DNA from: Dyella sp. EPa41
GTDB taxonomy: Bacteria; Pseudomonadota; Gammaproteobacteria; Xanthomonadales; Rhodanobacteraceae
Direction: 5' to 3'
Length of the DNA stretch: 64,000 nucleotides
NCBI RefSeq assembly: GCF_016586165.1
Contig: NZ_BCPR01000013.1
Coordinates: 1-64,000, forward strand
Shown here piece after piece: positions 19,644-27,623 of the stretch. The notes beneath the pieces were generated by a model, which had not been told where the DNA came from, ran no database searches, and worked only from the letters and a program-made list of their open reading frames with translations. Each line of letters opens with the position of its first letter. Within the stretch, counting starts at the first letter, position 1. Position numbers and translations under genes: made by a program.

Positions 19644-21486
<1,843 letters not shown>

Positions 21487-21585
21487 TGAGTGGAGCCTCG
21501 GCCGCCAGCTTCGAAGGACGCCGGCATTGCCCGAAAACGGGGCGTTACACCCGGCGATCGCCCGCTTTTGGTGCACCGCCACGGT

Positions 21586-21627
21586 TTGACCCATGAGGCT
21601 TTAATCAGTACCATTTTGGTACCGATT
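21586..21627 (+). promoter_or_regulatory. suf operon promoter with overlapping dyad operator
   Basis: TTGACC (21586-21591) and TACCAT (21609-21614), 17 bp apart, form a good promoter for the regulator-suf operon. A 25-bp dyad covers the -10: AATC-A-GTACCA-TTT-TGGTAC-C-GATT (21603-21627), perfect in both the inner 6-bp and outer 4-bp arms. Such a site over the -10, directly upstream of an Rrf2 regulator gene, is the expected place for autorepression by the Fe-S-sensing regulator. The sequence differs from the E. coli IscR sites and cyanobacterial SufR boxes as I know them. Confidence 0.65.
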
Positions 21628-21653
21628 CCCGCAGTCCCTTCCGGCCGCTCCCC

Positions 21654-22088
21654 ATGCTTCGCGTCAGCCGCCTCACCGACTACGCCACGGTGGTGATGAC
21701 CTGCATCGCCGCCCATCCCGACGACGTGCTCAGCACGGCGCAGATCGCCGATGAGACGCGCCTGGAGCTGCCCACCGTGAGCAAGCTGCTCAAGTCGCTG
21801 GGGCATGCGGGGCTGGTGGAGTCCTTCCGCGGCGTCAATGGCGGCTACCGCCTGGCGCGTCCGGCCGGGGAGATCACCCTGGCGCAGATCGTCGAAGCGC
21901 TGGAAGGCCCCATCGGCATGACCGAATGCAGCCTCGCCGAAGGCCAGTGCGATCGCGAGTCGCAGTGCGGCGTGCGATCCAACTGGCAACGCGTCAACAG
22001 CGTGGTGGACAACGCCCTGCGCGCCATCAGCCTGTCCGACATGCTCAAACCTCCCAGTCGCCGCATCGATGCGACCCTGATCGGCTGA
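21654..22088 (+). CDS. Rrf2-family SUF system regulator
   Basis: A 144-aa winged-helix repressor of the Rrf2/IscR family. The N-terminal HTH is [24 protein letters not shown] followed by the [17 protein letters not shown] wing. Three cysteines at about 92, 99 and 105 ([12 protein letters not shown]) are positioned to bind a 2Fe-2S cluster as in IscR (spacing C-x6-C-x5-C). As first gene of the suf cluster, it probably represses the operon when clusters are sufficient. It matches the group annotated as SUF system Fe-S cluster assembly regulator. A 25-bp dyad lies over its own promoter. Confidence 0.9.
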
Positions 22089-22132: not shown

Positions 22133-23607
<1,475 letters not shown>

Positions 23608-23611
<4 letters not shown>

Positions 23612-24237
23612 GCGCGGTACGGTCATCGCATTGGGACACGGTGTACAGCGAGAAGGGCGAGGCGCAGACCAGCTGGTTCCGCGCGCGCCTCGACGAATCG
23701 CTGCGCCTGATCGATGCGCTGGACCTGGCTCGTGACCAGCCCGTGCTGGACGTGGGCGGCGGTCGCTCCACCCTGGTCGATGACCTGTTGTCGCGCGGAT
23801 TCCGCGACGTGAGCGTGCTGGACCTTTCCGGCGTGGCGCTCGATGAAACGAGGCGCCGGCTCGGCGCGAAGGCCGATGCCGTGCACTGGGTCGTCGGCGA
23901 CGTCACCAGGGCCGAATGGCCGCCTGTCGCGCTATGGCATGACCGCGCGGTGCTGCATTTCCTGGTCGATGCGGACGAACGCGCGCGTTACGTCGCAGCG
24001 GCATCATGCACGGTGCAGGCCGGCGGCCATGCCGTCATCGGCGTGTTCGCGGCGGACGGCCCCGAGCGCTGCAGCGGCCTGCCCGTCGCGCGCTATGACG
24101 CACCCGCGCTGGCCGCGCTATTCAAGGATTCGTTCGAACTGATCGCCACCAGTCGCGACGTGCACCGCACGCCGGCCGGCGGTTCCCAAGCTTTCACTTA
24201 TGCCGTGCTTCGTCGCCGCGGTGGCGACAACGCCTGA
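23608..24237 (+). CDS. Class I SAM-dependent methyltransferase in suf operon
   Basis: A 209-aa Rossmann-fold methyltransferase. Motif I is [17 protein letters not shown], then an acidic strand end [18 protein letters not shown] and motif IV-like [20 protein letters not shown]. The substrate is unknown; the [21 protein letters not shown]-terminus is like small-molecule or thiopurine-type methyltransferases. It is translationally coupled to sufB (ATGA overlap) and lies 18 bp before sufC, so it is made with the Fe-S assembly machine. This place, splitting sufB from sufC, is unusual compared with E. coli sufABCDSE. Confidence 0.85.
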
Positions 24238-24255: not shown

Positions 24256-25026
24256 ATGCTGAAGATCGAAAACCTGCACGCCCGCGTCGAGGGCAAGGAC
24301 ATCCTCAAGGGGCTCACGCTCACCGTGAATCCGGGCGAGGTGCACGCGATCATGGGACCGAACGGCGCCGGCAAGTCCACGCTGGGCAACGTGCTGTCCG
24401 GTCGTGACGGTTACGAAGTGACCGCAGGCTCGGTGACCTTCAACGGCATCGACCTGCTGGCGCTGGAGCCGGAAGAACGCGCTGCCGCCGGCGTGTTTCT
24501 GGCCTTCCAGTATCCGGTCGAAATCCCCGGCGTGAACAACACCTACTTCCTGCGCGCCGCGCTCAACGCGCAGCGCAAGCAGCGCGGCGAGAAGGAACTG
24601 GATTCCATGCAGTTCCTCAAGCTGGTGCGCGAGAAGCTCAAGATCATGCAGATCTCCGACGAGCTGCTGCACCGAGCGGTGAACGAAGGCTTCTCGGGCG
24701 GCGAAAAGAAGCGCAACGAGATCTTCCAGATGGCCGTGCTGGAGCCGAAGCTCGCGATCCTCGACGAGACCGACTCGGGCCTGGACATCGACGCGCTCAA
24801 GCAGGTCGCGCAGGGCGTGAACGCGCTGCGTACGACGGAACGCGGTTTCCTGGTGATCACCCACTACCAGCGCCTGCTCGAGTACATCGAGCCCGATTTC
24901 GTGCACGTGCTGGCCGGCGGCCGCATCGTGGAGAGCGGCGACAAGACGCTGGCGCTCAAGCTGGAAGAGCACGGCTACGCCTGGGTGGCGGACAAGGATC
25001 CGGCGCTTAGCGGGGCCTCGGCATGA
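24256..25026 (+). CDS. sufC: Fe-S assembly ATPase SufC
   Basis: SufC is the ABC-type ATPase that drives shape change in SufBC2D. The 256-aa protein has Walker A GPNGAGKSTLGN, Q-loop region FLAFQYPVEIPGV, the SUF-specific signature FSGGEKKRNEI, Walker B LAILDETDSGLDIDAL and the switch histidine in VITHYQRLLEYI. No membrane segment, as expected. The stop codon overlaps the sufD start. Confidence 0.97.
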   Translation: MLKIENLHARVEGKDILKGLTLTVNPGEVHAIMGPNGAGKSTLGNVLSGRDGYEVTAGSVTFNGIDLLALEPEERAAAGVFLAFQYPVEIPGVNNTYFLRAALNAQRKQRGEKELDSMQFLKLVREKLKIMQISDELLHRAVNEGFSGGEKKRNEIFQMAVLEPKLAILDETDSGLDIDALKQVAQGVNALRTTERGFLVITHYQRLLEYIEPDFVHVLAGGRIVESGDKTLALKLEEHGYAWVADKDPALSGASA

Positions 25027-26342
25027 GCGAAGCGCAACGCACGCCGTTCGTCGAATCGCTGCTGGAAGCCGCCGCGCAGGCGCAGCTGCCGGGCAGCGGC
25101 ATCGGCTGGTTGGACGCGGCCCGCCGGGAGAATCTCGATGCCTTCGTCGCGGCCGGCCTGCCGGATACCCGCGTGGAAGCATGGAAATACACCGCGCTGC
25201 GCGCGCTGGGCCAGCGCCGGTTTGCGCCGGGCGATGCGCAGGCGACGACGCGCGCCGTGGATGCCGCGGCAATCACGCTGCCGGGCGTCGATGGCCCCGC
25301 GCTGGTGTTCGTCAACGGCGTGTTCCGCGCCGATCTTTCGCGCGTCGATGCGCTGCCTGCCGGCCTGAGCCTGCAGCCGCTCTCGCAGGCGCTCCAGGGT
25401 GATGCCGAACCCCTGCGCTTCGCGCTTTCGCGTCACTACCGCGAAGGCGGTGATGCATTCGCGCGCCTCAACGCGGCGCTCTCCGGCGACGGCGTCGTGC
25501 TGCGCGTCGCGCCCCACGCCACGGTGGCGCAGACCGTGCACCTGGTGTTCGTCGGTGCGGCGGCCGAGGGTGATCTCGCCTGGCATATGCGGCACATCGT
25601 AGAACTCGGCGAGGGCGCCGAACTGTCGCTGGTCGAGCATCACGTCGCCAGCGGCGAGCAGCAGCACCTGGGTACGCAGGTCACCGACATCGCGCTGCGC
25701 AAGGGTGCCCGCCTTCGGTGGGTCACACTGCAGGACGCGTCGGCCGGCAGCACCCTGGTACGCCATGACAGCATGCAGTTGGATGAGGACGCACAAGCCG
25801 CGTCGCATGTGCTGGAACTCGGCGGCGCGCTCGTGCGCCACGACCTGCACGCCACGCTGGCAGGCGACCGTTCGCGACTGGAAACGCGCGGCGTGTTCGT
25901 GCTCAACGGCCGCCAGCATGTCGATACGCAGATGGCCATCCGCCACCAGGCGCTCGGTACCGCTTCGGATTCGGTCTGGCGCGGCGTGGCCGACCAGCGT
26001 TCGCGCGGCGTGTTCCGCGGCGCCATCGTGGTGGCGCAAGGCGCCGACGGCAGCGATGCCAGCCTGAGCAGCAAGAACCTGCTGCTCTCCGGCCAGGCCG
26101 AGATCGACACCAAGCCCGAACTGGAAATCTATGCGGACGAAGTAAAGGCCGCCCACGGCGCCACCGTTGGACAGCTGGACGAGCGTTCGCTGTTCTACCT
26201 GCGCTCGCGCGGCATACCGCTCGCCGAAGCGCGCGCCATGCTGACGGCGGCGTTTTGCCGCGCGGTGTTCGCCTCCCTCGACAACGATGCGTTGCGCGAA
26301 CATCTCGATCATCAGCTGATGGCGCACCTGCCTTCCGCGTGA
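25023..26342 (+). CDS. sufD: Fe-S cluster assembly protein SufD
   Basis: SufD is the SufB paralogue completing the SufBC2D scaffold and is needed for iron acquisition. The 439-aa protein has a helical N-terminus and the beta-helix core with LVEHHVASGEQQHLGTQV, RGVFRGAIVVAQGADGSDA, LLLSGQAEIDTKPELEIYAD and KAAHGATVGQLDERSLFYLR. The conserved histidine in AHGATVGQLD is present. It overlaps sufC by four bases and is 33 bp ahead of sufS. Confidence 0.95.
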   Translation: MSEAQRTPFVESLLEAAAQAQLPGSGIGWLDAARRENLDAFVAAGLPDTRVEAWKYTALRALGQRRFAPGDAQATTRAVDAAAITLPGVDGPALVFVNGVFRADLSRVDALPAGLSLQPLSQALQGDAEPLRFALSRHYREGGDAFARLNAALSGDGVVLRVAPHATVAQTVHLVFVGAAAEGDLAWHMRHIVELGEGAELSLVEHHVASGEQQHLGTQVTDIALRKGARLRWVTLQDASAGSTLVRHDSMQLDEDAQAASHVLELGGALVRHDLHATLAGDRSRLETRGVFVLNGRQHVDTQMAIRHQALGTASDSVWRGVADQRSRGVFRGAIVVAQGADGSDASLSSKNLLLSGQAEIDTKPELEIYADEVKAAHGATVGQLDERSLFYLRSRGIPLAEARAMLTAAFCRAVFASLDNDALREHLDHQLMAHLPSA

Positions 26343-26375: not shown

Positions 26376-27623
26376 ATGAATGCACAGACCCAGGCGAGCC
26401 CTACCGTATTCGACGTGCAGCGCATCCGCGCCGACTTCCCCTTGCTGTCGCGCACCGTGCATGACAAGCCCTTGGTCTATTTCGACAACGCCAACACCAG
26501 CCAGAAACCGGCGAGCGTGATCGAGGCGGTGGACAACCACTATCGCCGCCACAACGCCAACGTTTCCCGCGCCGTGCACCAGCTCGGCGAGGAAGCCACC
26601 GCCGCCTACGAGGGCGCGCGCGACAAGCTGGCGCGCTTCATCAACGCCACCTCGCGCAACGAACTGGTGCTGACCTCGGGCACCACGCAGTCGATCAACC
26701 TCGTGGCCTACAGCTATGCGTTGCCGCGCCTGAAGCAGGGCGACGCCATCCTCACCACGGTGATGGAGCACCACGCCAACATCGTGCCATGGCAGCTGAT
26801 GGCCGCACGCACCGGCGCCACCGTGAAGGCGGCGCCGATCGATGAACGTGGCGAGCTGATCGTCGAGAAATACATCGAGATGCTGACGCCGGAAGTGAAG
26901 CTGGCCTGCGTCACCCACGTGTCGAACGTGCTCGGCACGGTCAATCCGGTGAAGGACATTGCCAGGGAATGCCGCAAGCGCGGCATCCCGCTGCTGGTGG
27001 ACGGTTCGCAGGCGGTGCCGCATCGCCCGGTCGACGTGCAGGCGCTGGGCTGCGATTTCTACGCGTTGACCGGCCACAAGATGCTTTCACCCACGGGCAC
27101 CGGCGCTTTGTGGGCGCGCAAGGAACACCTGGAGGCCATGCCGCCGTTCTTCGGTGGCGGCGAGATGATCCGCGAGGTGCGTTTCGACGGCACCACCTTC
27201 GCCGAGCCGCCGCACAAGTTCGAGGCGGGCACGCCGAACATCGCCGGTTTCGTCGGCCTGAGCGCGGCCATCGATTACTACCATTCGGTGGGGTTCGACG
27301 CGATCCATTCGTGGGAGCAGCAGCTGCTGGCGTATGCCACGGAGCGCTTGCGTGAAATCCCCGGTCTGCGCCTGGTCGGCGAGGCCAGGGAGAAGGAGCC
27401 GGTGATCTCGTTCCTGATCGAAGGCGCGCAGGCGACCGACCTTGCCACGCTGCTCGACCTGCAGGGTGTTGCCGTGCGCTCGGGTCACCACTGCGCCCAT
27501 CCGCTGATGCAGTTCTTCAAGGTGCCCGCCACGCTGCGCGCCTCGCTCGCGTTCTACAACACGCGCGAAGAAGTGGACGCGTTCATTACCGCCTTGTTGA
27601 AGGTGCGCAAGCTGCTGATGTGA
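26376..27623 (+). CDS. sufS: Cysteine desulfurase SufS
   Basis: SufS is a PLP enzyme that removes sulfur from cysteine as a persulfide for cluster assembly. The 415-aa protein shows the PLP lysine in YALTGHKMLSPTGTGALW and the catalytic cysteine in VRSGHHCAHPLMQFF, both characteristic of class II (SufS/CsdA) desulfurases. No sufE, sufU, sufA or sufT follows; the next gene is convergent, so the sulfur acceptor must be encoded elsewhere. A GC palindrome GCCGCCCGGGCGGC lies past the stop codon. Confidence 0.96.
   Translation: MNAQTQASPTVFDVQRIRADFPLLSRTVHDKPLVYFDNANTSQKPASVIEAVDNHYRRHNANVSRAVHQLGEEATAAYEGARDKLARFINATSRNELVLTSGTTQSINLVAYSYALPRLKQGDAILTTVMEHHANIVPWQLMAARTGATVKAAPIDERGELIVEKYIEMLTPEVKLACVTHVSNVLGTVNPVKDIARECRKRGIPLLVDGSQAVPHRPVDVQALGCDFYALTGHKMLSPTGTGALWARKEHLEAMPPFFGGGEMIREVRFDGTTFAEPPHKFEAGTPNIAGFVGLSAAIDYYHSVGFDAIHSWEQQLLAYATERLREIPGLRLVGEAREKEPVISFLIEGAQATDLATLLDLQGVAVRSGHHCAHPLMQFFKVPATLRASLAFYNTREEVDAFITALLKVRKLLM

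Follow-up and report, generated by a model that had tools for sequence, protein, structure and literature searches.

A 25-bp dyad over the suf promoter of Dyella sp. EPa41 is very probably the operator of the adjacent Rrf2-type SUF regulator

What binds the inverted repeat at the suf promoter of Dyella sp. EPa41, and what would binding do to the genes downstream? A sequence-only reading of this locus had described a dyad with perfect arm pairs (AATC/GATT and GTACCA/TGGTAC) that covers the -10 hexamer TACCAT of a promoter serving an Rrf2 regulator gene and then sufB. We examined the dyad in the window, the whole 64,000-nucleotide stretch of contig NZ_BCPR01000013.1, and followed it through related genomes.

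The dyad and the suf promoter

The description of the locus was borne out: we found the promoter, a regulator gene matching TIGR02944, and a sufB match downstream. The features are as follows.

21586..21591, + strand: -35 hexamer TTGACC (promoter search)
21603..21627, no strand assigned: 25-bp dyad, putative operator of the Rrf2-type SUF regulator (sequence, conservation, and covariation)
21609..21614, + strand: -10 hexamer TACCAT, within the left half-site of the dyad (promoter search)
21654..22088, + strand: Rrf2 regulator, SUF system Fe-S cluster assembly regulator (TIGR02944, 170 bits)
22133..23611, + strand: sufB (profile match)
24256..25026, + strand: sufC (profile match)
25023..26342, + strand: sufD (profile match)
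26376..27623, + strand: sufS-type cysteine desulfurase (profile match)

The dyad, AATCAGTACCATTTTGGTACCGATT, lies 26 bp upstream of the regulator gene. Ten of its 12 symmetric positions pair, all of them in the two arm pairs named above; the unpaired positions are A5/C21 and T12/T14. TTGACC and TACCAT, 17 nt apart, form the sole sigma-70-like promoter detected in 21300-21700, where shuffled sequences average 0.1. Between sufB and sufC, an open reading frame at about 23608-24237 on the + strand overlaps the sufB stop and resembles, by eye, a class I SAM-dependent methyltransferase gene. On the - strand, a glnK-like P-II gene and an AmtB-like open reading frame (the latter judged by eye), together spanning 19644-21309, diverge from the suf operon and share its intergenic region.

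AATCAGTACCATTTTGGTACCGATT is present once in the window, even when up to three mismatches are allowed, and the 4.9-Mb genome contains a single exact copy of its core, GTACCANNNTGGTAC. Only 0.004 chance dyads are expected within one 60-bp stretch. Across the window, we counted 17 stretches of 25 bp in which 10 or more of the 12 symmetric positions pair, this dyad included, versus 7.65 expected from 40 dinucleotide-preserving shuffles of the window. Because at least one of the 40 shuffles also reached 17, the symmetry alone is not significant, and with 17 equal or better dyads in the window we rejected it as proof of an operator by itself. The significance of the dyad comes from its conservation.

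Conservation of the site and a second copy at nfuA

The regulator was present in 238 of 250 genomes sampled from the order. We assembled 110 regulator loci from nine families, 30 from an initial search (the window's own included) and 80 chosen across genera and families; two checks, covering the 80 and the 30, found a sufB match in every locus. Using a matrix grown from the window's site, we found the 25-bp site upstream of regulator-sufB in 110/110 loci. When each family was scored with a matrix built without it, all 110 upstream regions outscored every one of the 198 to 215 shuffled upstream regions per family (lowest observed score, 12.5; highest shuffle, 5.1). The site was also found in 80/80 named loci from genera that include Dyella, Rhodanobacter, Luteibacter, Dokdonella, Lysobacter, Luteimonas, Thermomonas, and Arenimonas; their species partly overlap the 110-locus set. 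The sequence-only reading had proposed comparing Rrf2-sufB upstream regions in other Xanthomonadales, with lack of conservation to count against it. In both sets the dyad was kept, as it was in the loci outside the order described below.

The families are numbered here, f1 being the window's own (Dyella, Rhodanobacter, and related genera). Among 43 f1 sites, the commonest forms are AATCAGTACCATTTTAGTCCCGATT (nine) and the window's own (five); among 41 f2 sites, they are AAAGCGTACAATTTCAGTCCGCTTT (six) and the fully symmetric-armed AAAGCGTACAATTTCGGTACGCTTT (four). In f1, the information per position is 1.67 bits inside the site versus 0.25 to 0.84 bits on either side, as calculated from the 29 of 43 loci whose flanking sequence was long enough. 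We also searched 18 genomes from the order, counting the best model match in each: it lay beside the regulator and sufB in 12, lay elsewhere in 5, and was missing in 1. This set holds seven f9 genomes, with distant regulators, and one genome (G061) that is also in the 110-locus set. Among twelve genomes of the order that lack the regulator, five gave weak matches (best E, 0.23), and no such match lay close to nfuA or to sufB, which these genomes may also lack; this absence carries little weight because 10 of the 12 genomes are less than 90% complete.

The two arms covary. Among 77 distinct sites, 72.1% of cells were paired versus 68.6% in column shuffles (0 of 500 reached the observed value), and pairing in shifted registers was 32 to 40%. 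Cells changed on both sides numbered 58 versus 39.9 in shuffles; counted by position pair, however, doubly changed pairs (6) and pair types (14) did not exceed the numbers seen in shuffles of the 77 sites. Within families, the observed pairing was reached by 12 of 2,000 shuffles in f1 and 20 of 2,000 in f2; the remaining families, mixed, gave no covariation signal (1,457 of 2,000). Covariation is therefore modest once families are taken separately.

TIGR02944 scored above its cutoff in 78 of 274 genomes drawn from the class. From these we fetched 30 loci, 27 of them outside the order, and in 27/27 the site outscored all shuffles, the weakest site reaching 7.7 and the best shuffle 2.5; ATTCAGGACTATTTTAGTCCTATTT is an example. 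Over 181 sites, A8, C9, G17, and T18 are invariant, giving AC-N7-GT in all. G at position 7 is found in 16 of 27 sites outside the order, 2 of 44 nfuA sites, and 1 of 110 suf sites of the order, and C at position 19 in 20 of 27, 37 of 44, and 80 of 110, respectively. The dyad had been put forward as a candidate recognition sequence of a xanthomonad SUF regulator. Its presence throughout the 110, the 80, and the 27 loci makes it very probably the regulator's operator; versions of it also occur beyond the xanthomonads.

The nfuA sites came from a genome search with model R1, which was built from suf sites only. In 25 f1 genomes, the best R1 match lay beside the regulator and sufB in 25/25, a result that is in part built in, since R1 had been trained on many of these sites. 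R1 found a further site in 21 of the 25, and in 14/14 of those with a known nfuA position, the site lay 14 to 59 bp before nfuA. In the window's genome, the second site, ATACAGCACCATTTTAGTCCTATTT, lies 35 bp before nfuA, a gene whose best NfuA model score (215 bits) is below the 269 cutoff and far above the next non-NfuA families. Some nfuA matches read through one stop codon, and their proteins are possibly shorter than the query. In one genome (G252), the second R1 site is not at nfuA; there a strongly palindromic sequence, AATCAGGACAATTTCCGTCCTGATT (L144, G252:C3:569574-569598), precedes an open reading frame that by eye resembles an HTH-type regulator gene. Further R1 matches were seen in G022, G150, and G255.

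We then scanned 89 nfuA upstream regions (one of 90 was dropped), with a threshold above 99% of 890 shuffles. The site was present in 40/43 f1 and 3/3 f3 upstream regions but in only 1/31 from f2 and 0/12 from f4, f5, f8, f10, and f12 together. Thus, the nfuA target characterizes f1 and f3 but not the order as a whole. When 24 f2 genomes were searched with the model, 21 had a single match, 2 had a pair of matches, and 1 had no match; in 9 of the 24 a match lay at the known suf site. In the window's genome, model R2, trained on suf and nfuA sites, yielded only suf (E, 4.8e-5) and nfuA (E, 1.8e-4) at E up to 10, and we rejected a larger regulon there; weak sites may be missed because of the training set, the scoring of 150 of 808 first-look candidates, and the stricter filters. 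A divergent gene that by eye resembles a pterin-4a-carbinolamine dehydratase gene shares the nfuA upstream region (L147 and L145), and an operator at nfuA could act on both genes.

The regulator and related systems

The regulator scores 170 bits against the TIGR02944 cutoff of 110.65, and in the window it lies beside sufB, sufC, sufD, and sufS, the gene context that we had set as a criterion. Its nearest named relative found is the regulator of Dyella jiangningensis (99% identity). Against the IscR model TIGR02010 it scores 71.9 bits, where the cutoff is 207.55, and no IscR above the curated cutoff was found in the window's genome. A second, weak Rrf2-family match is present there (L116, G000:C23:47689-48084; 52.8 bits to the IscR model).

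We compared the 110 regulators with IscR, whose cluster ligands and DNA-contact residues are defined in PMC8593673 and PMC11475020; the residue correspondence is our own alignment to an E. coli IscR sequence, and the regulator matches IscR structures. Cys92, Cys99, and Cys105 are invariant in 110/110, with the spacing C-x6-C-x5-C in 103, x7 in 4, and x5, as in IscR, in 3. The position of IscR His107 is Arg in 89 of 110 and His in none, and the IscR ligand set (C92, C98, and C104 with His107) was not found among the 110 proteins. Arg59 is invariant. Where IscR has Ser40, Glu43, and Gln44, nearly all of the regulators carry Pro, Ser/Ala, and Lys, the Glu43 position being Ser in 84, Ala in 24, Gly in 1, and Arg in 1.

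The dyad had been thought unlike both IscR type 1 and IscR type 2 sites. For type 2 (AWARCCCYTSnGTTTGMnGKKKTKWA) this was right: the fit was 13.9/26 versus 13.1 for shuffled sites, and we rejected that class. For type 1 it was not supported. The type 1 operator consensus, given in PMC6599224 as ATASYYGACTRWWWYAGTCRRSTAT, has the same 25-bp length and spacing as the sites here, and A1, A8, C9, G17, T18, and T25, which it fixes, are likewise present in all or nearly all of them. Type 1 sites also lie at Fe-S biogenesis genes, and PMC8593673 places nfuA among the E. coli IscR type 1 loci. The differences are that type 1 has Y6, G7, and R20 where the sites here have G6/C20 and often T7, and that the regulator here is not IscR by the curated cutoff. 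The window's copy fits the type 1 consensus at 13/25 positions, which may explain why no likeness was seen. The mean of 86 sites is 15.5 versus 9.9 for symmetric permutations, and with every fourth site taken, set-level symmetric permutation reached the observed fit in 224 of 20,000 trials; on the better strand, the means are 15.8 for sites outside the order and 16.5 for nfuA sites. X. campestris IscR is reportedly the subject of a study by Fuangthong in 2015. PMC6599224 lists a Xanthomonas campestris site among the IscR type 1 sites, so that the counterpart in Xanthomonas has been described at least in part, and names X. campestris as an example of bacteria that make Fe-S clusters by SUF alone. 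Judged from these sequences, the site appears to be a lineage-specific form of a type 1-like Rrf2 site with a small regulon of suf and, in the window's family, nfuA.

RisR of Myxococcus xanthus provides the best mechanistic precedent. According to PMC9973013, repression of suf by this Rrf2 protein works through a GAC-N7-GTC dyad that overlaps the promoter hexamers and depends on its three cysteines; RisR acts in its holo form at suf and isc promoters, with the operator T[t/g]GAC-N7-GTCC[t/a]. The AC-N7-GT core, the dyad over suf promoter hexamers, and the three-Cys Rrf2 protein are all as here, and in RisR, too, Ser40, Glu43, and Gln44 of IscR are not conserved. The G and C that flank this core in RisR are present in part of the sites here, as counted above for positions 7 and 19. 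RisR differs in that it also controls isc, belongs to the IS6 group of PMC9973013, and has the spacing C-x9-C-x5-C (C92, C102, and C108). Cyanobacterial and mycobacterial SufR, compared by protein only, is likewise a SUF-recruited regulator holding an Fe-S cluster but is an ArsR-like HTH protein according to PMC9973013, not an Rrf2 protein. Rhodobacter IscR is, according to PMC4618611, an Rrf2 repressor that needs its cluster and a palindromic promoter site, the Iron-Rhodo-box; unlike here, the box is 19 bp, the protein has a single cysteine, and the targets include iron uptake and storage genes. For Rrf2 groups near suf other than IscR and RisR, PMC9973013 states that Fe-S binding awaits experimental validation.

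Alternative explanations and proposed mechanism

Could the conserved block be the promoter only, with the dyad arising incidentally from a conserved -10 and the bases around it? The -10 (TACCAT or TACAAT) does lie inside the left half-site in most loci, starting 6 bp upstream of the dyad center in 94 of 99 loci of f1 to f5 and f12, and T7, part of the -10, is found in 109 of 110 suf sites of the order. However, the right-arm positions G17, T18, and T25, downstream of the -10, are fixed in 110/110, and the arms covary. In six of eight f10 loci, the -10 starts at +30 from the dyad center and the dyad is still present, with the -35 (TTGTTT) extending into its right arm. The dyad is retained there with the promoter 36 bp elsewhere, so that its conservation serves a protein rather than the promoter. 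The same dyad stands before nfuA in the opposite orientation in 39 of 40 f1 sites, with C7 in 33 of 44 nfuA sites rather than T7, and the 27 sites outside the order have G (16) or T (11) at this position; the overlapping -10 (TAC..T) presumably dictates T7 in the suf sites of the order. The fixed right arm, the covariation, and the f10 register led us to reject the promoter-only explanation, which we consider very improbable. The site scores better in the reversed orientation in both of the f8 loci and in the single f6 locus. An attenuator-type RNA hairpin, which an inverted repeat near a start codon might bring to mind, is hardly conceivable: the start of transcription expected from the promoter, about 7 nt after the -10, falls within the right arm, so that the left arm would be absent from the mRNA, and no terminator-like site was found in 21300-21700. 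We rejected the hairpin on both grounds.

If the dyad is kept for a protein, that protein could be one other than the adjacent regulator, such as a true IscR, Fur, or a different Rrf2 paralogue. Binding by the adjacent regulator is a prediction, and the weak second Rrf2 match offers a paralogue; however, the genome has no IscR above the curated cutoff, the site stands at the regulator's own promoter in 110/110 loci, and the 12 regulator-less genomes have no model match near sufB or nfuA, with the caveat on sufB given above. We regard another protein as quite unlikely. Also unlikely, if a little less so, is that the regulator binds as an activator or in its apo form, as apo-IscR does at the E. 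coli suf type 2 site. The replacement of Glu43 in 110/110 regulators means that the cluster switch may differ from that of IscR. Against this, the site lies over the -10, a position from which bound proteins generally exclude polymerase, and the type 2 fit is lacking. Activation of E. coli suf by apo-IscR is described in PMC8593673 and PMC12594620, whereas the similarly placed RisR represses in its holo form (PMC9973013).

We conclude that the dyad is genuine and that it very probably serves the adjacent SUF regulator as its operator; on the evidence from sequence comparison, a holo-dimer most likely represses suf, its own gene, and nfuA, and the apo form would release them. According to this model, a homodimer of the TIGR02944-type regulator would bind the dyad with one subunit per arm and carry an Fe-S cluster on its three cysteines. 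RNA polymerase would be blocked because the left half-site contains the -10, and the regulator-sufBCDS operon would be repressed, giving negative autoregulation. The Fe-S carrier NfuA would be repressed as well, via the site of the same design 35 bp before its gene. When clusters become scarce, under iron starvation or oxidants, the apo-protein would release the DNA and the genes would be turned on. Conservation, arm covariation, overlap with the promoter, the second site at nfuA, and the invariant cysteines are observations; that the adjacent protein binds the dyad, whether it represses or activates, and which cluster form does so are what we infer here. Repression by the holo-protein with autoregulation is most likely.

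A broader proposal commands about equal belief and doubt: that many Gammaproteobacteria possess an old, dedicated SUF repressor with its own code, GGAC-N7-GTCC, a three-Cys protein with no His and no Glu43 and so without the type 1/type 2 switch of IscR. Its regulon in Rhodanobacteraceae would be suf and nfuA, and in the order one half-site would have fused with the -10, with T7 forced and promoter strength and operator co-evolving.

Near-universal retention among the relatives studied and a second copy at another Fe-S gene suggest a small, dedicated feedback switch. With a predicted operator at the promoter of nearly every member analyzed and at a second target, this feedback loop could be tested with a 25-bp probe, and the predicted operator would allow the regulon to be read from genomes.
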